A stretch of 16,248 nt of DNA. Origin: Solirubrobacteraceae bacterium (lineage in GTDB: Bacteria; Actinomycetota; Thermoleophilia; Solirubrobacterales; Solirubrobacteraceae). The notes under the pieces are model-generated. The model did not search any database. It saw only the letters and a program-made list of their open reading frames with translations, and was not told the DNA's origin. The stretch is taken from positions 1 through 16,248 of the forward strand of contig JAICJK010000009.1 in the NCBI GenBank assembly GCA_025928415.1. The letters are read 5' to 3'. Both the position numbers and the translations under genes were made by a program. Positions 2,283 to 11,269 of the stretch are shown here, piece by piece. The stretch's first letter is position 1. The number at the start of each line of letters is the position of its first letter.

Positions 2283-5200
2283 TCAGGCCGCCAGCTCGGC
2301 GCCCCGCTCCGCGGAGGGCTCCGCCAGCTCCACGAACCGGCACGCCCCGTCCACGAGCTCCATCGCCGCAAGCGTCCGGCAGTCCGCGTCGAGCAGGCGC
2401 GGGGAGTGGACGAGCACGGCGAGGCACTGCGCGCGGGAGACCGCGACGTTGAGCCGGTTGCGCTCGAACAGGAAGTCGAGGCCGCGCGGCACGTCCTCGC
2501 CCGACGAGCAGGTCATCGCGAAGAAGACGACGGGCGCCTCCTGGCCCTGGAAGCGGTCGACGGTCCCGACCCGCACGCCGGCCGGGACGTGCTCGCGGAT
2601 GCAGCGCACCGCCATGTTGTAGGGGGCGACGACCATGACGTCGGCCGCGACCAGGCGCCGGGTGACGCCGCGGTCGTCGGTCACCGTGCCGGCCGCCAGC
2701 ACCTCGCGGCAGGCCTCGGCGATCGCCTGCGCCTCCTCCACCGAGCTCTGGCTGCGACCCTCGTGCTCCACCGCCAGCACGCGCAGGCCCGCGCCGGTCA
2801 GGCGCCCGGCGCCCGCGTCGATCCGCCGCAGGGCGCAGGCCTCGCGCGAGCGCAGCCGGTCGTCGTAGCTGCGCTCGGAGACGAACGCGCAGACGCCGGG
2901 GTGCATCCGCCACGACTCCGTCAGGAAGTAGCCCTGCGTCGCCGGCACGGTGCTGCGCCCGCCCAGCGCGTGGGCGAGCACGGACAGGCCTGAGGATCCG
3001 GGGTGCGCGGCCTTGGTGACCTGGGCGAGCTGCTGCGGGTCGCCGAGCAGCACGATGCCGGGCGCGCAGAGCCCCACGGCCGCGGCGTTGGCCAGCGAGA
3101 ACTGACCGGCCTCGTCGATGAACAGCAGCCCGAACTGCCCGCGGTGCTCCTCGCGGGACAGCAGCCAGGCGGTGCCCGCGACCAGGTCGAAGGCACCGTC
3201 CGCGCCCTCGTTGTCGTCGACGCAGGTGATCAGCCCGTGCGCCGACGCGTAGCCCGCGCCCTTGTAGACGCCGCGGAAGGCGACGCCGGCCTCGGCGGCC
3301 GCCTCCTCGATCGCCGCCAGCAGGTTCTGCACCGCCGCGTGGCTCGGCGCCGTGACGGCGACGCGCCGCCCGTCGGCCAGAGCCGCGACGACCATGCGCG
3401 CGCCCCGCCACGTCTTGCCCGTGCCGGGCGGGCCCTGGACGACCAGGTGGCTGTCGCGCAGGTCGAGCGCCGTGCGCACCATGTCCTCCAGCGACGGGTC
3501 GCCGACCTGCTCGAAGGCGCCACCGGAGGCCAGCCGCGGCGGCTCGCGGCGCAGCACGCTGCGGGCGGCGGCGCCGAGGGGCCGGCCGGCGGCGACCGCG
3601 CGGCCGAGCGCCTCCAGGCTCTCGCGCAGGGCCTTCGCGTCGACCGCGCCGCCGCCGATCAGCGCGCGGACCTCCGGCGGGCCGTCCTTGGTCTGGCGGC
3701 GGATGACCGCGCGGTCGTCCTCGATGCGCTGGACGTTGACGCGCCGGCCGGTGGCGGGGTCGACGCAGCGGTCGGAGTCGAGCTTGAACTCCTGCGGGGG
3801 GAAGCTGAAGGTCCAGTCGGTCGACCGCTTGACGGGCACGGGGGCGACCGCCGCGTCGAGCGCCAGGTCGCCGATCGCGTCGCGCTCGTCGATGAGCTGC
3901 TCGGCGGTCATGGCGCGCAGCTCGAAGTACCGCCACCACTCGGGCTTGGCCTCGCGCCGGTGGAAGAGCATGAGATGGGCGAGCAGCCGGCGCTCGGCGG
4001 CGCCGGCGTCGTCCGACGCGTCGTCGGCCGGCAGCCCGGCGGCCAGTTCCCCGGCGAGGGCCTGCATGCGCACCATCCAGTCGGCGGGCACGAACTCCTT
4101 GGCCGGCGCGGCCCCGAGCCCGTCGAAGTCGCAGTCCAGCTGCGCCGCGGCCTCCGGCTTCATCCGGTCCTGCAGCCAGTCACGCAGCACGAGCGTCGAG
4201 ATGCAGTCCTCGACGTTGTAGGCGCGGATCGCGTCGAGCATCGCCTGGTCGCGCGTCTGCAGCCAGTGCTCGTAGGCGACGATCGAGCCGCCGCCCTCGC
4301 GGACCGTCGTCTCCCGCCGGACGAAGCCGGTGTGGCGCTCCAGGCGCTTGAGGCCGTAGCTCTCCTCCCCCACCTGCAGCCCCTGGCGCACCACGGCGAA
4401 GAGGTCGACGAGCACGCCTTGGCGCAGCAGGTCGTCGACCTCGTCCTCGCGCGTGGCGTACTTCAGCGCCAGGGAGCGCAGCTTGGACGCCTCGTGGGGC
4501 GCGTAGTGGAAGACGTGCAGGCCCGGGTGCCGGCGCCGGCGCGCCATCACCAGGTCGACGAAGTGCTCCAGCGCCGCCTTCTCGCCGGCGGCGTCGTGCG
4601 CCCAGACGCACGCGTAGGCGCCGTCGGCCGTGCACCAGCCCCACAGGTACTCGATCCCGCCGTCCGTCCCTGCGTAGGGATCGCCCTCGAGATCGAAGAA
4701 GAGGTCGCCGGCGTCGGGCGCCGGAAGGCGGGCGTAGCCGCGCTCGGCCTCGGGCGCGAGGTGACGATGGTGGAGCCCGCCGTCCTCCCAGGTCTGCACC
4801 TGGAGGGCCGCCTGGTGGCGCAGCAGGTCGAACCGCTCCGTGCCGAGCTTGGCGACCGCCAGGTCCTCCGGCGCCGCGGCGAGGTCGTGGACCCGCGGCA
4901 GGCCGGCCTCGACCAGGCGCGCGCGCAGGTCGCGCCGGGCGCCCGCGACGAGGCTCAAATGGTCGTCGGCACGCCGCCGGGCACGGCACTCGCGATCCAG
5001 GTCGCAAAGTCCGCAGTGGGCCGTCGGCTCGGGGTAGGTCGGCCGTGCGCCCGCCGCGACGAGCCGCTCGAGCCGTCGGACGACGTGGCAGTGCAGCGCG
5101 CCGTAGCGCCGCAGGTCGACGATCCGCTCGGCGCCGTCGCCGAGGACGAGGTACGCGGCCTGCGGCGTCCGCCCCTGGGCCTCGCCGAGCAGGCGCGTGT

Positions 5201-5675
5201 ACAGCGCGAGCTGGTGGACGACGTAGGGCTTGACGTCGCGGGCGAGCTTGGTGTCGAGGACCTCGTAGCTCCACGGGCCGAGTTCCGAGGCGACCGGCAC
5301 GCGCCGCAGGAAGTCCACGCGGCCCTGCCAGCGGCCGTCGAACAGCAGGGCCTGGTAGATGAGCGGCGCCCCGGCCCGCATCGCCGCCTGCGTGCGGGCC
5401 GCCTGCTCGACGTGCCAGGCGCGCGTGAACTCCGTCGCAGGCGCCGTGAGGTCGACGTGGCCGCCGAGCTGCGCCGACAGCCGCGCGAGCGTCTCCTGCT
5501 CGTGGTCGATGCCGCGGGCCCGGGCCAGCTGGCCGTGCGGATCCTCGAGCTTGGCCCACCGCGGGCGCTCCCGCGCCGCGACGGCGCGCTTCTGCTCGAT
5601 GAGGTGCTCGCAGGCGAGGTAGCTCGTCAGGTCCGTGGCGGACAGGACGAGCTGATGGTCGTCGAGGCGGAACAT
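2283..5675 (-). CDS. TM0106-type RecB-like nuclease / RNase H-like exonuclease / SF1 helicase fusion
   Basis: A 1130-aa protein with three enzymatic parts. Residues 1-235 form a RecB/Cas4-type nuclease: HEQE at 58-61, GRVDF with D121, EVLDTK at 138-143, the QxxxY motif QLALY at 155-159, and four cysteines (C22, C221, C224, C230) in the 1+3 spacing of the 4Fe-4S nucleases AddB and Cas4. Residues 325-500 form an RNase H-like, YprB-type DEDD exonuclease domain: DLEGDPY with D328/E330, D424, and YNVED ending in D490. Residues 720-1095 form an SF1 helicase of the Upf1/Dna2 class: Walker A GPPGTGKT 748-755, DEAGQ 854-858, GDPQQ 878-882, VDRFQGQE 1039-1046, and NRLNVAVSRAQ 1073-1083. A role in DNA end processing, repair or defence is inferred. 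The start at 5675 fits the family opening LSATDLTSYLACEHL and lies inside the preceding gene. GGAG is 13 nt upstream. Confidence 0.93.
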   Translation of the reverse strand: MFRLDDHQLVLSATDLTSYLACEHLIEQKRAVAARERPRWAKLEDPHGQLARARGIDHEQETLARLSAQLGGHVDLTAPATEFTRAWHVEQAARTQAAMRAGAPLIYQALLFDGRWQGRVDFLRRVPVASELGPWSYEVLDTKLARDVKPYVVHQLALYTRLLGEAQGRTPQAAYLVLGDGAERIVDLRRYGALHCHVVRRLERLVAAGARPTYPEPTAHCGLCDLDRECRARRRADDHLSLVAGARRDLRARLVEAGLPRVHDLAAAPEDLAVAKLGTERFDLLRHQAALQVQTWEDGGLHHRHLAPEAERGYARLPAPDAGDLFFDLEGDPYAGTDGGIEYLWGWCTADGAYACVWAHDAAGEKAALEHFVDLVMARRRRHPGLHVFHYAPHEASKLRSLALKYATREDEVDDLLRQGVLVDLFAVVRQGLQVGEESYGLKRLERHTGFVRRETTVREGGGSIVAYEHWLQTRDQAMLDAIRAYNVEDCISTLVLRDWLQDRMKPEAAAQLDCDFDGLGAAPAKEFVPADWMVRMQALAGELAAGLPADDASDDAGAAERRLLAHLMLFHRREAKPEWWRYFELRAMTAEQLIDERDAIGDLALDAAVAPVPVKRSTDWTFSFPPQEFKLDSDRCVDPATGRRVNVQRIEDDRAVIRRQTKDGPPEVRALIGGGAVDAKALRESLEALGRAVAAGRPLGAAARSVLRREPPRLASGGAFEQVGDPSLEDMVRTALDLRDSHLVVQGPPGTGKTWRGARMVVAALADGRRVAVTAPSHAAVQNLLAAIEEAAAEAGVAFRGVYKGAGYASAHGLITCVDDNEGADGAFDLVAGTAWLLSREEHRGQFGLLFIDEAGQFSLANAAAVGLCAPGIVLLGDPQQLAQVTKAAHPGSSGLSVLAHALGGRSTVPATQGYFLTESWRMHPGVCAFVSERSYDDRLRSREACALRRIDAGAGRLTGAGLRVLAVEHEGRSQSSVEEAQAIAEACREVLAAGTVTDDRGVTRRLVAADVMVVAPYNMAVRCIREHVPAGVRVGTVDRFQGQEAPVVFFAMTCSSGEDVPRGLDFLFERNRLNVAVSRAQCLAVLVHSPRLLDADCRTLAAMELVDGACRFVELAEPSAERGAELAA

Positions 5676-6055
5676 GAGGGGTGGGTCGCTCCTGGCGGCG
5701 GGGAACTGACGTCCTGGTCTGCTTCGGACGCCGGCGACGCGCGCTTGAACGGGAGGTCCGCCGGCGATCCGCGCCGCCCGGCCACGCTCTGGGTCGCGAG
5801 CTGCACGAGCTCGGGCCAGCGCGCGGCCAGCCGCGGCGCCTCGCCCGCGATGCCGGGGAGGCCGGCGGCCAGCGCCAGCGAGCAGCAGAGCATCGTGCTC
5901 GCCGCGTCGAAGCCGCGGGCGACCGGGACGGTCAGCGAGCGCGCGCCGGCGGCGTCGATCAGGCGGATCGCGTGGCGGCCGTCGTCGCCGAGCGGCGCCA
6001 GCACCTGCACCCCGGCGCGGTCCATGGCGTCGCACAGCGCCGCGAAGGCGATCAC
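5627..6055 (-). CDS. Hypothetical protein, 142 aa, overlapping the nuclease-helicase start
   Basis: The frame opens at a GTG that shares GTGA with the stop codon of the short upstream frame, a classic translational-coupling arrangement. It reads VIAFAALCDAMDRAGV, then LGDDGRHAIRLIDAAGA, which suggests a compact alpha/beta fold. Codon third positions are G/C almost throughout the first 110 codons, so the gene looks genuine. The last 45 residues are Ser/Pro-rich and low in complexity, and their codon bias weakens where the frame overlaps the first 49 nt of the helicase gene. The overlap implies co-expression with the helicase. I do not recognise a family; an accessory subunit is possible but only inferred from position. 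ATG at codon 11 (MDRAGV) is an alternative start. Confidence 0.6.
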   Translation of the reverse strand: MIAFAALCDAMDRAGVQVLAPLGDDGRHAIRLIDAAGARSLTVPVARGFDAASTMLCCSLALAAGLPGIAGEAPRLAARWPELVQLATQSVAGRRGSPADLPFKRASPASEADQDVSSPPPGATHPSCSASTTISSSCPPRT

Positions 6056-6147
6056 GACCCGCCCTCCGCGCCGAGGTGGGCGGCGGCGGCGAGCGCGCGG
6101 TCGACGCGCGCCCGGCGCTCGAGCGGGAGGGAGAGCGTTGCCGGCAT
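6052..6147 (-). CDS. Possible 31-aa peptide at the head of the helicase operon
   Basis: A short frame, MPATLSLPLERRARVDRALA to a final GGS, ends in TGA overlapping the GTG of the 142-aa gene. Third positions are mostly G/C and a charged helix is predicted (ERRARVDRALAAAAHL). There is no Shine-Dalgarno sequence before the ATG, and the same frame stays open further upstream through the intergenic region, so the start is uncertain. It may be a coupling leader for the next gene, or the true N-terminus of that gene if a frameshift or sequencing error lies near 6050. Confidence 0.3.
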   Translation of the reverse strand: MPATLSLPLERRARVDRALAAAAHLGAEGGS

Positions 6148-6177
6148 GGCACGCGGGTCGTCGGCCGATCCGCCGAT

Positions 6178-6213
6178 CTGACACCGGCGCCGGACCCGGG
6201 CGGCGCCTGTCAG
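6178..6213. promoter_or_regulatory. Strong inverted repeat in divergent intergenic region (candidate operator or hairpin)
   Basis: CTGACA (6178-6183) and GGCGCCG (6186-6192) are exactly complementary to TGTCAG (6208-6213) and CGGCGCC (6201-6207). This gives a 13-bp stem with a 2-nt bulge and an 8-nt loop. It lies 54 bp before the VWA start and 30 bp before the minus-strand peptide start, so it could act as a shared operator or as an RNA hairpin in the 5' leader of the VWA operon. The complementarity is seen directly; the role is inferred. Confidence 0.55.
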
Positions 6214-6253
6214 GCCCGCGGCCCGCCCGGCGACCCATGCCCGAACCCAGCCC

Positions 6254-6267: not shown

Positions 6268-7497
6268 ATGCACGTCAACGCCCACCTCGACATCGACCTC
6301 GTCGCCGTCGAGCAGACCGACCAGGTCACCGTCATGCTCGAGCTGCTGGCGCCCGAGGCGCCCGCCGGCGCCGAGCGTGCCGCCGCCTGCGTGCAGGCCG
6401 TCCTCGACCGCAGCGGATCCATGCAGGAGCGCGACCGCCTGGCCGCCGCGCGCACGGCGCTCATGGCGCTCGTCGACCGCCTGGACCCCCGCGACGCGTT
6501 CGGGCTGGTCGTCTTCGACCACGAGGTGGACGTCGTCGTCCCGGCCGGCCCGCTGACCGACAAGGCTGCGGTGAAGGCCGCGATCGCCGCGGTCCCCCCG
6601 CGCGGCGGAACCAACCTGTCCGCCGGGCTGCTGCGCGGCGTCCAGGAGGCGCGCCGCGCCGCCGGCCCCGGGGGCGCCACGCTACTGCTCGTCTCCGACG
6701 GCATGGCCAACCAGGGCGTGACGGAGCCCGAGCGGCTGGAGGCGGTCGCCGCGACCGCCCACCGCGCCGGGGTCACGGTGTCCACCGTCGGGATCGGCCT
6801 CGGCTACGACGAGACCGTCCTGGCCGCCGTCGCCCGCGGCGGGCAGGGCGAGCACGTCTTCGCCGAGGAGGCCGACGCCGCGGGCGCCGCGGTGGCCGGC
6901 GAGGTCGAGGGGCTGCTGAGCAAGACGGTGCAGGCGGCCTCGCTGCTCATCCGGCCGACCGGCGACGTCGCGTCCGTACAGCTCTACAACGACCTGCCCG
7001 CGCACGCCGTCGACGGCGGCGTCATGGCCGAGCTCGGCGACCTCTGGGCCGGCGAGGAGCGCAAGCTGCTGCTCGGCCTCACGGTCCCGGCGATCGCCAC
7101 CCTCGGCGTCGCGCAGATCGCGGAGCTGGAGCTGCGCTACGTGACGCTGCCGGACCTCTCCGAGCAGACCGTGACGCTGCCGATCAGCGTCAACGTCGTG
7201 CCCGGCGACCAGGCCGCGGGACGCATCGCCGACCCGCGGGTCCGCACCGAGCTGCTGTTCCAGCAGGCCCAGGAGGCCAAGCGCCGCGCGGCCGACGCCA
7301 TCGCCCGCGGGGACCACCGCGAGGCGATGGCGGTGCTCGGGGAGGCCGGCGACCGCCTGGCGGGCGTCGACGATGCCGAGCGCCAGGTCGTGCTCGGCCT
7401 GGCCTCCGAGCTCGCCACGGGCTCGGCGCGCCGGGCCGCCAAGACGGCCCGCATGCAGCAGGCGCGCGCGGCCCGCAAGCGCGGGCGGGGCATGTGA
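6268..7497 (+). CDS. VWA domain-containing protein
   Basis: A 409-aa protein. Residues 38-215 form a von Willebrand factor A domain with a complete metal-dependent adhesion site: D47-R-S49-G-S51 (DRSGS), the threonine in GGTNLSAG (T115), and D144 in VSDGMANQG. VWA domains bind partner proteins through Mg2+. A beta-rich region (220-315) follows, then a basic helical tail (325-409) that ends AARKRGRGM. There is no signal peptide or membrane segment, so it should be cytoplasmic. It is the first gene of a three-gene operon, 12 bp before the sigma factor gene. It may serve as a sensor or scaffold for that module; this is inferred from position only. VIT/VWA proteins of unknown function are the nearest description. 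Confidence 0.9.
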   Translation: MHVNAHLDIDLVAVEQTDQVTVMLELLAPEAPAGAERAAACVQAVLDRSGSMQERDRLAAARTALMALVDRLDPRDAFGLVVFDHEVDVVVPAGPLTDKAAVKAAIAAVPPRGGTNLSAGLLRGVQEARRAAGPGGATLLLVSDGMANQGVTEPERLEAVAATAHRAGVTVSTVGIGLGYDETVLAAVARGGQGEHVFAEEADAAGAAVAGEVEGLLSKTVQAASLLIRPTGDVASVQLYNDLPAHAVDGGVMAELGDLWAGEERKLLLGLTVPAIATLGVAQIAELELRYVTLPDLSEQTVTLPISVNVVPGDQAAGRIADPRVRTELLFQQAQEAKRRAADAIARGDHREAMAVLGEAGDRLAGVDDAERQVVLGLASELATGSARRAAKTARMQQARAARKRGRGM

Positions 7498-7509
7498 GAG
7501 TGTCAGGAC

Positions 7510-8166
7510 ATGCTCGAGCCGAGCGACCCGCCTAGCGTGGGAAGGCACGAGGATGAGCACCTGCGCCGGTTCGTCGCCGCGCGCCGGCGTGGCGACGCCG
7601 GCGAGATGCGCCGCTGGTGGGAGGAGCTCGTGATCGACTTCTACGACCGCATGGACGGCCTGGCCTACGCCGCGCACAGGGGGCGGCTCGACGCCGGCGA
7701 GCACGAGCAGGCCGTGCAGCTGTGCATGGTCCGCTTCTCGAACAAGCTGATCACCACGTTCAAGGGGACCTCGATGGGCGAGCTCGTCAACGCCTGCAAG
7801 CCGCTGGCACGGGGCATCTGCATCGACGTCCAGCGCAGCGCGATGCGCGAGCACCGCAACGCGGGCCCGTCGCTCGACGCGGGCTGGACCGCCGCCGACG
7901 AGGACCGTCCCGCGCCGCGCTGGGAGGCCGACGAGGCCATGCGCCGCTTCGAGCGCGACGAGGAGCGCGCCGAGGCCCGCGACTTCCTCGGCTGGGCGCT
8001 GCCGCAGGTCAAGGCGGAGCGCCGCCGCGCGCTCGAGCTGACCATCCGCGGCGCCGCGCTGCCCGAGATCGCCCAGGAGCTCGGCATCAGCAAGGACAAC
8101 GCCTACCAGCGGCGCTGCCGCGGGATGAAGGACCTCACCACGCTCAAGGGGCGGTACGACGCATGA
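7510..8166 (+). CDS. Sigma-70 family RNA polymerase sigma factor (ECF-like)
   Basis: A 218-aa protein of the size and layout of an ECF-type sigma factor. Residues 16-110 are a helical region-2-like part with the FSNKLITTFKG and LARGICIDVQRSAMREHRN segments, which resemble the -10-recognition and DNA-melting helices. An acidic linker (125-155, ADEDRP and FERDEERAEARD) follows. Residues 160-212 are region 4, with the recognition helix-turn-helix LPEIAQELGISKDNAYQRR (184-202). Region 2 is divergent, so it would sit outside the common ECF groups. The weak binding site TCAGG lies 3 nt before the ATG. The stop overlaps the next start as ATGA, which implies translational coupling with the XRE-like protein, a natural position for its regulator. 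Confidence 0.85.
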   Translation: MLEPSDPPSVGRHEDEHLRRFVAARRRGDAGEMRRWWEELVIDFYDRMDGLAYAAHRGRLDAGEHEQAVQLCMVRFSNKLITTFKGTSMGELVNACKPLARGICIDVQRSAMREHRNAGPSLDAGWTAADEDRPAPRWEADEAMRRFERDEERAEARDFLGWALPQVKAERRRALELTIRGAALPEIAQELGISKDNAYQRRCRGMKDLTTLKGRYDA

Positions 8167-8816
8167 GCACCATCGAGCAGGTCCTCAGCGACTTCATCGA
8201 GGCGTGGAGCGCCGGCCGGCGCCCGTCGGTCCGCGAGCACCTCGCCCGCGTGCCCGAGGGCCCCGAGCGGGACGCGCTCGCCGACCAGATCACGACCTGG
8301 CTGGAGGTCGCGCCGACGCCGGCCTACTCCGAGACGGCCCGCGCCGAGATCCGCGCCGAGCCCGCCGTGCGGCACGTCCTCGACGCGGCCGGGCAGGACG
8401 CGGGGCTGTGGCCGGCGGTCATCCCCGGCCTCCGGGCGCGCGCCGGGCTGTCCGTCCGGCAGACGGCGTCCCGCCTCGTGGAGCGCCTCGCGCTGGCGCC
8501 CGGCAGCGAGGAGCGCACCGCGGACTACCTCGAGCGCCTGGAGCGCGGCGAGCTCGAGCCGTCGCGCGTATCCCGGCGGCTGCTCGGCGCGCTCGGGGAG
8601 CTGCTGGGCGCAAGCGCCGACACGCTGGCCGACGCCGCGCGGTTCGGCACCGGGCTCAGGCCCGCGGCGGCGGGCGGGACGCTGTTCCGCGCCTCGGGGG
8701 AGGCCGGCGACTGGGTGGCGCGCGACCTCGAGGCGCTCAGCGCGGCCGCGATGCGACCGGCGCCCCCGGAGCTGGACGAGCTCGACCGGCTGTTCGTCGG
8801 CGGCGCGGACGCCTGA
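8163..8816 (+). CDS. XRE-like helix-turn-helix protein, putative regulator of the upstream sigma factor
   Basis: A 217-aa protein in two parts. The N-terminal 50 residues (FIEAWSAGRRPSVREHLARV, then PEGPERDALADQI) resemble the short element found in front of many planctomycete-type Ser/Thr kinases, but no kinase follows. Residues 88-155 read like an XRE/Cro helix-turn-helix with a widened turn: LRARAGLSVRQTASRL, then YLERLERGELEPS, then LLGALGELLGAS. The C-terminus is acidic (APPELDELDRLFVGGADA). The gene is coupled to the sigma gene by an ATGA overlap and converges with the ImmA/IrrE peptidase gene. By analogy with DdrO and ImmR it could be a peptidase substrate; by position it could be an anti-sigma factor. 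Both are inferences. Confidence 0.7.
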   Translation: MSTIEQVLSDFIEAWSAGRRPSVREHLARVPEGPERDALADQITTWLEVAPTPAYSETARAEIRAEPAVRHVLDAAGQDAGLWPAVIPGLRARAGLSVRQTASRLVERLALAPGSEERTADYLERLERGELEPSRVSRRLLGALGELLGASADTLADAARFGTGLRPAAAGGTLFRASGEAGDWVARDLEALSAAAMRPAPPELDELDRLFVGGADA

Positions 8817-8828
8817 CGCGGCGCTGGA

Positions 8829-9551
8829 TCAGGTGAGCAGCCGGCCGACGGCGCCCGCGTCGCCCGCGTCGAGCGCCGCGTCCCCGCGCAGGCTCGCCGC
8901 CAGATGGGTGCCGTCGAGCGCCGGGGAGAGGTACGGGAGGTGCTGCAGCGCGCCGAGCCGGTCGTCGAGCGGGCGGCAGCCCAGGCGGTGCCACGCGTCC
9001 TCGTGCAGCCCCTCGCGGACCTCGGCTTCGAGCTGCGCCAGCCGCTTGGGCGACGCCAGGCCGAGCTGCTTGAGGCGGTAGACGACGACCGGGGTGCTCA
9101 CGCCGTAGGCCGCGGCGATCAGCACCGCGACGTCGAGCGACGGCTCGCCGTCGACGAGCCGCTCCATCGCCGCCCGCGGGACGAGGAACTCCGCCGCGAA
9201 CGCGTTGGCCTGCAGCTCGTAGGGGTTGGTCGTCGACCCGTTGAACGTCGTGAGCTTGTCGACCGGCTCGTGGCCGTCGTGGCCGCACCACGCGTGGGCC
9301 AGCTCGTGGGCGAGCGTGAAGCGCTGCCGCGGCCGGAACTGCCGGCCGTTGACCCACAGCAGCGCCCGGTCGCCGTCCCGGCGGCAGGCGCCGGCGACGT
9401 CGTCGGGCAGCGGCGCGACGATCACCGGCAGGCCGGCGCGCTGCTCGACGGCGTCCAGCAGACAGGGCAGCGGGGCCGTCGGATCGAGGCCCAGCGCCGC
9501 CCGGGCCTCGCGCGCGCGCTTCGCCCCGCGGTTGGAGTCCAGGCCGGCCAT
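8829..9551 (-). CDS. ImmA/IrrE family metallo-endopeptidase
   Basis: A 240-aa protein with the zinc peptidase signature HELAHAWCGH (HELAH at 82-86) and the third-ligand helix ELQANAFAAEFLVPRAAM (E112). A winged-helix-like segment DVAVLIAAAYGVSTPVVVYRL (140-160) follows, as in ImmA and IrrE. Characterised relatives cleave XRE repressors: ImmA cuts ImmR in ICEBs1, and IrrE/PprI cuts DdrO after radiation in Deinococcus. Its obvious candidate substrate is the XRE-like protein encoded convergently 12 bp away. No Shine-Dalgarno sequence is visible before the ATG at 9551, and the DNA upstream is the palindromic element, so its promoter may lie in or beyond that element. The C-terminal 70 residues show no motif I know. 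Confidence 0.93.
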   Translation of the reverse strand: MAGLDSNRGAKRAREARAALGLDPTAPLPCLLDAVEQRAGLPVIVAPLPDDVAGACRRDGDRALLWVNGRQFRPRQRFTLAHELAHAWCGHDGHEPVDKLTTFNGSTTNPYELQANAFAAEFLVPRAAMERLVDGEPSLDVAVLIAAAYGVSTPVVVYRLKQLGLASPKRLAQLEAEVREGLHEDAWHRLGCRPLDDRLGALQHLPYLSPALDGTHLAASLRGDAALDAGDAGAVGRLLT

Positions 9552-10153: not shown

Positions 10154-11269
10154 ATGTCGTCCTCGCAACAGGCCAGGGCCGTCGTGCTGGAGGCGTTCGG
10201 GGCGCCGGTGCGCTCGCGGGAGCTGCCCGTCGCCGAGCCCGGCCCGGGCGCCATCGTCGCGACCGTCGAGCTGGCCGGCGTGTGCGGGACCGACGTGCAT
10301 CTGCAGGCCGGGCGGCTGCCGATCCCGCTGCCGGTCGTCCTGGGCCACGAGGGCGTCGGCCGGATCGCGGCGCTCGGGGAGGGCGTGACCGAGGACTCGC
10401 TCGGCACGCCGCTGGCCGCCGGGGACCTCGTCGCCTGGGGCTCGAGCATCTCGTGCGGCGACTGCTTCTACTGCCGCGACGCGCAGGAGCCGACGCTGTG
10501 CGAGCGCCGCCGCATCTACGGCATCAACCGCCGCGCCGACGAGTGGCCGCACCTCGGCGGCGCGTGGGCGGAGGCGATCTACCTGCACCCGGGGTCGATG
10601 GTCGTCCGCCTCGGCGCCGGCACGCCGCCCGAGGCGGTCATCGCGCTGGGCTGCGCCGGCCCGACCGCGGTGCACGGCCTGCTCGGGGTCGCCCCCGTCG
10701 GCGTCGGGGAGAGCGTCGTCGTACAGGGCGTGGGCCCCGTCGGCCTGGCGACCGCGATGTACGCGCAGCTCGCCGGCGCCGCGAACGTCGTGCTCATCGG
10801 CGGGCCCGCGTCGCGGCTGGAGCGCGCCCGCGCGCTCGGCGTCGGCGACGCGTACCTGGAGCTCGACGCGCAGAGCCCGGCCGAGCGCCTGGACGCCGTG
10901 CGCGAGCTGACCGGCGGCCGCGGCGGCGACCTCGTCGTCGAGGCCACCGGCGTCCCCGCAGCCGTCGCCGAGGGCCTGGAGCTGTGCCGGCCCGGCGGGC
11001 GCTACCTCGTCCTCGGCCAGTACACCGACCACGGCCCGACGCCGCTGAACCCGCACCTGGTGACCCGCAAGCAGCTGCGGGTCCTCGGATCGTGGGCGTT
11101 CTCGCAGGCCGACTACGCGACGTACCTGCGCACCGTCCCGCAGCTCGCCGCGCGGTTCGACCTGCCGCGGCTCCTCGAGCGCTTCACCCTCGGCGACGCC
11201 CAGGCGGCGCTCGACGCCGCGCGGGCCGGGGAGGTCGGCAAGGCCGTGCTGGTCCCGGACGCGGGCTGA
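10154..11269 (+). CDS. Zinc-dependent medium-chain alcohol dehydrogenase family protein
   Basis: A 371-aa MDR-superfamily oxidoreductase. The catalytic zinc ligands are C44 (AGVCGTDVH), H65-E66 (VLGHEGVG) and probably C167 (GCAGPT). The structural zinc site is C101-C104-C107-C116 (CGDCFYCRDAQEPTLC). The Rossmann nucleotide-binding loop is GVGPVG at 192-197. The length is normal for the family. It should oxidise an alcohol or polyol, or reduce an aldehyde, with NAD(P); the substrate is not readable. It stands alone between a divergent unknown gene and the DUF1003 gene. A GGGCG/CGCCC hairpin lies 30 bp after its stop. Confidence 0.95.
   Translation: MSSSQQARAVVLEAFGAPVRSRELPVAEPGPGAIVATVELAGVCGTDVHLQAGRLPIPLPVVLGHEGVGRIAALGEGVTEDSLGTPLAAGDLVAWGSSISCGDCFYCRDAQEPTLCERRRIYGINRRADEWPHLGGAWAEAIYLHPGSMVVRLGAGTPPEAVIALGCAGPTAVHGLLGVAPVGVGESVVVQGVGPVGLATAMYAQLAGAANVVLIGGPASRLERARALGVGDAYLELDAQSPAERLDAVRELTGGRGGDLVVEATGVPAAVAEGLELCRPGGRYLVLGQYTDHGPTPLNPHLVTRKQLRVLGSWAFSQADYATYLRTVPQLAARFDLPRLLERFTLGDAQAALDAARAGEVGKAVLVPDAG

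Follow-up and report, generated by a model that had tools for sequence, protein, structure and literature searches.

The stretch of DNA analyzed here, referred to below as the window, comprises 16,248 nucleotides of a Solirubrobacteraceae bacterium and corresponds to contig C411 in a draft genome of 3.25 Mb (87.5% complete). It encodes an extracytoplasmic function (ECF)-type sigma factor, an XRE-like helix-turn-helix (HTH) protein and a metallopeptidase of the M78 (ImmA/IrrE) family, with a gene for a VWA protein upstream of the sigma gene. A preliminary description of the sequence had proposed a four-gene module of plus-strand VWA, sigma-70-like and XRE-like genes and a convergent HELAH peptidase. 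Domain searches recovered all four; the ATGA overlap between the sigma and XRE-like genes is present at 8163-8166, and the peptidase gene indeed faces the XRE-like gene from 12 nt beyond it. The principal features are as follows.

6208-6234, plus strand: predicted sigma-dependent promoter of the VWA gene, with 33 nt from CGAC to the ATG at 6268
6268-7497, plus strand: VWA protein, 409 aa (PF00092, E 1.8e-16), predicted output gene
7501-7527, plus strand: predicted sigma-dependent promoter of the sigma-XRE operon, TGTCAG-N17-CGAC
7537-8166, plus strand: ECF-type sigma factor, 209 aa from a GTG, probably leaderless; the ATG at 7510 is a longer alternative
8163-8816, plus strand: XRE-like partner, 217 aa, proposed soluble anti-sigma factor
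8394-8654, plus strand: HTH domain of the XRE-like protein, about residues 78-164
8775-8804, plus strand: conserved C-terminal tail DELDRLFVGG of the XRE-like protein, residues 205-214
8829-9551, minus strand: M78 (ImmA/IrrE-type) metallopeptidase, 240 aa, HELAH, proposed sensor protease

The XRE-like protein, used as the query, matched 76 of 232 genomes of the order at 78 places. We fetched 92 loci, some of them perhaps redundant: 77 places in the order (the window excluded), 12 in other orders or classes and three from named genomes. Module genes were found in them with profiles grown from the window proteins. Ninety loci contain the XRE gene; L152 and L153, among the weakest matches, do not and were left out. 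The sigma gene lies directly upstream of the XRE gene in 83 of the 90, and an M78 gene follows within 2 kb downstream in 77, in 23 cases convergent as in the window and in 54 codirectional. Because the M78 family occurs only once in the 3.25-Mb window assembly, this adjacency exceeds what chance would give. Seven of the 13 loci without M78 within this distance have less than 100 nt of contig left; the peptidase gene lies on the opposite side in L056 and L146 and farther away in L121 and L077, and L059 and L083 have none. Seven loci lack a sigma gene immediately before the XRE gene: three of them (L069, L124 and L143) lie at contig ends, in L133 and L150 the sigma gene is about 0.5 kb away with another open frame in between, and none was found near the XRE gene in L091 and the fragment L126. 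Pairwise distances are correlated among the sigma, XRE and M78 proteins, as shared descent would make them (r 0.50-0.64 against a permutation maximum of 0.13; 76 triads, window included, not corrected for the species tree).

The VWA gene was found in only 5 of the 92 loci. In this comparison of gene neighborhoods, set beforehand as a check on the four-gene proposal, the sigma, XRE and M78 genes thus stay together across the 90 loci, and VWA is not part of the conserved unit. The data support a conserved linked unit of a dedicated sigma factor, a coupled XRE-like partner and an ImmA/IrrE-type peptidase. Clusters of open reading frames outside the triad recur in at most 16 of the 92 loci and were read as lineage synteny rather than as additional members. 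The linkage bears on a prosaic rival explanation, that the XRE-like protein and the peptidase are a regulator pair of the ordinary toxin-antitoxin or mobile-element kind and lie next to a sigma gene by chance. XRE-COG2856 pairs are common and, in excerpts of PMC2701414, are proposed as toxin-antitoxin modules; we nevertheless consider a chance neighborhood very improbable, given a sigma gene linked in 83 of 90 loci, the correlated triad distances (with the same proviso about the species tree) and the dispersed targets, such as ssb, that are described below.

In a sample of the phylum, 22 of 396 genomes matched: five of the same order (including the window genome), 10 of other orders of the class and seven of other classes, of which G311 alone is a strong match. 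A scan of named genomes with a single sigma sequence gave no match; one with XRE alignment A1 returned 13 loci, all in Actinomycetota, but it used only the tail pattern and says little on wider spread. Paraconexibacter antarcticus (L112) is a cultured named carrier. Some genomes carry two modules, such as G170 (L032 and L065, one of each arrangement) and G078 (L048 and L056), and L132 contains a further XRE-sigma pair that faces the first.

On its own the window sigma factor falls under the cut-offs, with a weak TIGR02937 match (E 1.1e-8, under the family cut-off), and its family assignment comes from aligned members. All 22 of these match TIGR02937, 10 match Sigma70_r2 and 13 match r4_2. Searched against the PDB, the family profile spans ECF chains over their whole length (best E 1.8e-15), and the top Foldseek matches of an AlphaFold2 (AF2) model (mean pLDDT 74.6) are sigma factors, mostly of the ECF type, with E-values of 1e-4 to 1e-3 and low TM-scores. 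From these comparisons, the gene product clearly belongs to the ECF-type sigma-70 factors.

Reading of the regions upstream of the sigma genes revealed a shared TGTCAG ... CGAC motif. A perfect pair with a spacing of 14-19 nt is present in 40 of 82 such regions, against 0.12 expected from first-order shuffles, and the promoter is not perfect in the other 42; the spacing is 17 nt in 39 of the 54 best pairs. Across the module loci, TGTCAG-N16/17-CGAC gave 78 matches, compared with 4 for the reversed pattern. ATG or GTG frame starts pile up directly behind the motif, 35 of them at 8-11 nt as opposed to 36 over the 28 positions from 12 to 39 nt, and therefore many transcripts from TGTCAG-N17-CGAC are probably leaderless. 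The consensus of 60 aligned promoters reads TGTCAGAtc, gCGACyy and start codon; beyond the −35 element, the −10 element and the start codon, these 60 show no other clearly conserved element that could be a separate operator. The sigma operon thereby has the layout of one that is autoregulated through a bipartite promoter.

This motif also bears on the start of the sigma gene itself. The perfect −35/−10 pair at 7501-7527 spans the earlier-proposed start, ATG 7510, and GTG 7537 comes 9 nt after it. In an alignment of 52 homologues V10 is nearly invariant and the first residues are not conserved. Since the promoter covers ATG 7510 and conservation begins only at V10, translation probably starts at GTG 7537. 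The 12-nt gap described earlier between the VWA and sigma genes holds only if ATG 7510 is used; the gap is probably 39 nt, with the promoter of sigma inside it.

TGTCAG was found in none of the 11 loci from outside the order. GTAAGR takes its place in nine of them with the same geometry, although it was noticed in these same 11 loci and then counted, so that its expectation of 0.2 flatters it; a start codon follows 24-34 nt on in eight of the 11. It looks as if promoter and sigma factor had diverged together. At L040:1816-1851 a near-palindrome, TGTCAGATCGTCCTGACA, arises from overlap of the sigma promoter with its own mirror image on the opposite strand.

The genome of the window contains the motif with a 16-17 nt spacing five times (reversed control, one). 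Three of these sites lie in the window, before the sigma gene, the VWA gene and a leftward operon with a RecB-like gene; of the two outside, one is 9 nt before the gene of a GIY-YIG protein and the other is not followed by an open frame. The window has three more sites with one mismatch, a number not much above expectation. No perfect sigma-type promoter precedes the M78 gene in the window, and none of the one-mismatch sites is found at its start. The leftward operon comprises the following features.

6157-6183, minus strand: predicted sigma-dependent promoter of the leftward operon
6052-6147, minus strand: 31-aa ORF, first of the operon, with its ATG 9 nt after CGAC (read from the sequence)
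5627-6055, minus strand: 142-aa ORF with a GTG start, by eye like a 105-aa promoter-led ORF of L032; a Pfam search gave no match
2283-5675, minus strand: TM0106-family RecB-like nuclease fused to an SF1-type helicase, 1130 aa (RNase_H_2, AAA_11, AAA_12), predicted output gene

To the right of the module, a zinc-type alcohol dehydrogenase gene at 10154-11269 on the plus strand (PF08240 and PF00107) is apparently unrelated to it.

For comparison between genomes we used a strict form of the motif, followed by a start codon at 7-11 nt. In the 76 genomes with the module it gave 174 matches, against 10 for the control; in the 156 others it gave 75, against 31 for the control. The 174 include the promoters of the sigma genes themselves (strict form in 21 of 71 sigma upstream regions of the order), and some sites, for example in G010, G017, G186 and G208, are counted twice where two start codons fit. 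At least two strict matches occur in 48 of the 76 carriers and in 12 of the 156 others, with a Fisher p of 6e-19 that overstates the evidence, as the genomes are related. Judged by its sequence, a sigma gene is present in G111, one of these 12, where it lies at a contig end (L230); no XRE gene was found in the 12 or in G176.

The XRE-like protein gives an HTH_31 match under the cut-off (E 2.3e-4), and this domain is found in 44 of 60 members. In its AF2 model, residues 78-164 form a lambda-repressor-like HTH, with weak Foldseek E-values and the N-terminal domain of CapH among the fold matches; a disordered linker (164-181) and a C-terminal helix follow, and the fold search barely covers the part outside the HTH. 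A conserved tail motif closes the protein behind a variable linker (strict form in 43 and a looser form in 71 of 84 complete members) and could be a docking site for the protease or for sigma. One candidate fusion, P0091 (370 aa), was not used as such, as by eye its frame changes part-way. The XRE gene lies within 25 nt of the sigma gene in 82 of 83 pairs and overlaps it by 1-4 nt in 42, as expected of cotranscribed and translationally coupled genes. The HTH region is less basic in 76 module proteins (charge −0.57) than in 23 other HTH_31 domains (+2.39; p 2e-6); for this control, 30 HTH_31 loci were fetched from five module genomes, two were module XREs, and 23 of the remaining 28 passed the motif filter.

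Translational coupling, the atypical charge of the HTH and the absence of a separate operator lead us to favor a role of the XRE-like protein as an anti-sigma factor. Soluble anti-sigma factors share little sequence homology, as noted in excerpts of PMC8999054. The protein could instead act like DdrO or CapH, as a DNA-binding repressor that sits on or across the sigma promoters, possibly on the TGTCAG box, and keeps them blocked until cleavage by M78 lifts the block and sigma amplifies the response. Its fold would suit such a repressor, and both the lack of a conserved operator besides the −35 and −10 elements and the near-neutral HTH leave room for DNA binding; the same two observations nonetheless argue against it, and we regard direct repression as rather unlikely.

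The peptidase is well defined by its sequence. It matches PF06114 above the cut-off (E 1.5e-20, HELAH), and the HExxH motif and the later, third-ligand Glu are invariant in 21 of 21 members. In the PDB, the family profile matches best to CapP, then to the HTH protein 9vzy and then to IrrE, and the best PADLOC model is of the CapP-CapH type. PprI and CapP are reported, in excerpts of PMC10904395, to cleave their HTH partners under stimulation by single-stranded DNA. By analogy with PprI-DdrO and CapP-CapH, M78 would be the releasing protease that cleaves its XRE-type partner. Conserved linkage and coupling suit a positive partner as well as a negative one, so that the XRE-like protein might also be an activator or adaptor of sigma and cleavage by M78 might switch the system off or reset it. 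The known M78-XRE pairs, however, relieve repression (excerpts of PMC10904395), and an activator appears improbable to us.

VWA orthologues are present in 15 of the 232 genomes of the order, in 13 of 76 carriers and 2 of 156 others (Fisher p 1.3e-5), and in several genomes they lie away from the module. The script found no start at three of these 15 places; a perfect promoter precedes nine of the 12 VWA genes that it scored, 9-83 nt from the start, in addition to that of the window. We therefore rejected VWA as a core member of the module (5 of 92 loci, 15 of 232 genomes), yet its enrichment in carriers is as expected of an output gene, and it looks like one driven by the sigma factor. The earlier suggestion that the VWA protein senses or scaffolds does not fit a gene that is missing from most module genomes, lies elsewhere in several and carries a sigma-type promoter.

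Further predicted targets were taken from loci chosen by eye. Promoter-led genes identified with Pfam encode a RecB-like nuclease/helicase, RmuC, NurA (barely above the cut-off), DUF6361 and GIY-YIG proteins, ARPP-1 (three loci tested), TPR proteins, an AAA protein with DUF5925, SbcD, a trypsin-like protein, cREC_REC, N-formylglutamate amidohydrolase, a Cas3-like helicase, the AddB N-terminal domain, an ADP-ribosylglycohydrolase, a PucR-type HTH protein and VWA. A protein with HD and OB-fold domains, which we take to be YhaM-like, is promoter-led in four genomes, a SNF2 helicase in G026, a genome without a detected module, and M78 itself in one codirectional locus. A nearly identical promoter is shared by 11 genomes of a single genus. 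In the two that were read (L226:722-748 and L227) it precedes ssb by about 126 nt, and Pfam confirmed the single-stranded DNA-binding protein (SSB) for the L226 target; four of the 11 genomes (G093, G097, G100 and G101) are incomplete, with no module detected. About 10 of the submitted target proteins gave no Pfam match. By eye, three families of small proteins recur behind the promoter (L048/L065/L214/L305, L192/L196/L216/L218 and L184/L188/L219); those of L048, L305, L192 and L219 fall into no convincing Pfam family.

Taken together, the computed results (linkage, sigma identity, motif, association of motif and module, and target list) suggest a mechanism in which restraint by XRE, cleavage by M78 and the signal are the parts that we infer. 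The ECF sigma factor would transcribe its own operon from the TGTCAG-N17-CGAC promoter, and the XRE-like protein made from the same mRNA would hold it in check as a soluble anti-sigma factor. M78 would sense a signal such as single-stranded DNA, of the kind that acts on IrrE/CapP, and cleave the XRE-like protein in response. Once freed, the sigma factor would transcribe this operon along with a small number of dispersed genes, often from leaderless promoters. Many of the proposed targets would serve DNA processing (the RecB-like nuclease/helicase, SSB, SbcD, RmuC, NurA-like, AddB-like and GIY-YIG proteins); others are VWA, ARPP-1, DUF6361 and further proteins. We give this mechanism roughly even chances.

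Several observations weigh against it. The HTH fold matches of the XRE-like protein are DNA-binding domains, and no anti-sigma Pfam domain was found among its 60 members. Seventy-five strict promoter matches (control, 31) lie in genomes without a detected module, and no XRE gene was found in G176 and G008 (L240 and L241), yet their VWA genes have a perfect promoter; this may reflect gaps in the assemblies or a different sigma factor that uses the same promoter. That many targets serve DNA processing is a strong impression from loci chosen by eye, with no enrichment test, and several target genes encode no known domain. Finally, a LexA domain is found in 210 of the 232 genomes of the order (weakly, E 2.8e-4, in that of the window), so that these cells need no substitute for the SOS response, and we rejected the module as a replacement for it.

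More tentatively, with somewhat less than even confidence, we propose that in Thermoleophilia the module may form a second, sigma-driven response to DNA damage or DNA conflict beside LexA. M78 would sense damaged or foreign DNA and destroy the XRE-like protein, which would represent a new class of HTH anti-sigma factors and whose conserved LFxGG tail would be the signal for docking or cleavage; the sigma factor thus released would induce SSB, end-processing nucleases, RecB-like helicases and the VWA/ARPP-1 conflict genes from leaderless promoters. If true, this would be a sign of a DNA response beyond SOS in a class of bacteria that has been little studied. The promoter motif allows the regulon to be tested directly, and with it several target families of unknown function.

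Control of stress responses and mobile elements by XRE-M78 pairs is widespread, and the known pairs act via direct derepression. One close parallel is IrrE(PprI)-DdrO of Deinococcus, which shares with the module an M78 protease, an HTH partner and DNA-processing targets, and whose cleavage stimulated by single-stranded DNA (PprI; excerpts of PMC10904395) is the trigger proposed here too. DdrO, however, represses genes directly at the RDRM operator, whereas in the module an ECF sigma factor with a distinct promoter code is interposed and no separate operator is seen. CapP-CapH of CBASS resembles the module in that CapP is the closest solved relative of the M78 profile and the N-terminal domain of CapH is among the HTH fold matches, but the output of the module would run via a sigma factor; no CBASS genes (nucleotide cyclase, effector) were found among the five window proteins scanned. 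ImmA-ImmR of ICEBs1 controls a mobile element by direct repression and, unlike the module, is not known to have a dedicated sigma factor. It has in common with the module an M78 protease beside an XRE-type protein (excerpts of PMC2701414).

From the side of the ECF sigma factors, the module has the familiar sigma2-sigma4 architecture, predicted autoregulation and a cotranscribed partner, and the ECF41 promoter TGTCACA-n16-CGTC provides a precedent for a TGTC-type −35 element (excerpts of PMC3426412). The difference lies in the partner, an HTH protein that lacks a known anti-sigma domain and whose gene is linked to that of an M78 protease. The terms 'XRE' and 'M78' are absent from the main text of a 2022 review of non-canonical ECFs (PMC8999054, term search), and the combination of a sigma factor with an XRE-M78 pair was not found among the top-ranked matches in the open-access literature, a scope outside which the 2021 ECF reclassification falls, so that an ECF group with this neighborhood may already have been described. 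XRE-M78 pairs (excerpts of PMC2701414) and autoregulated ECF sigma factors are each known already, and it is their combination that appears to be new. If the proposed mechanism is true, a dedicated, self-amplifying sigma output would join these two classes of regulators, with a promoter code that can be read.

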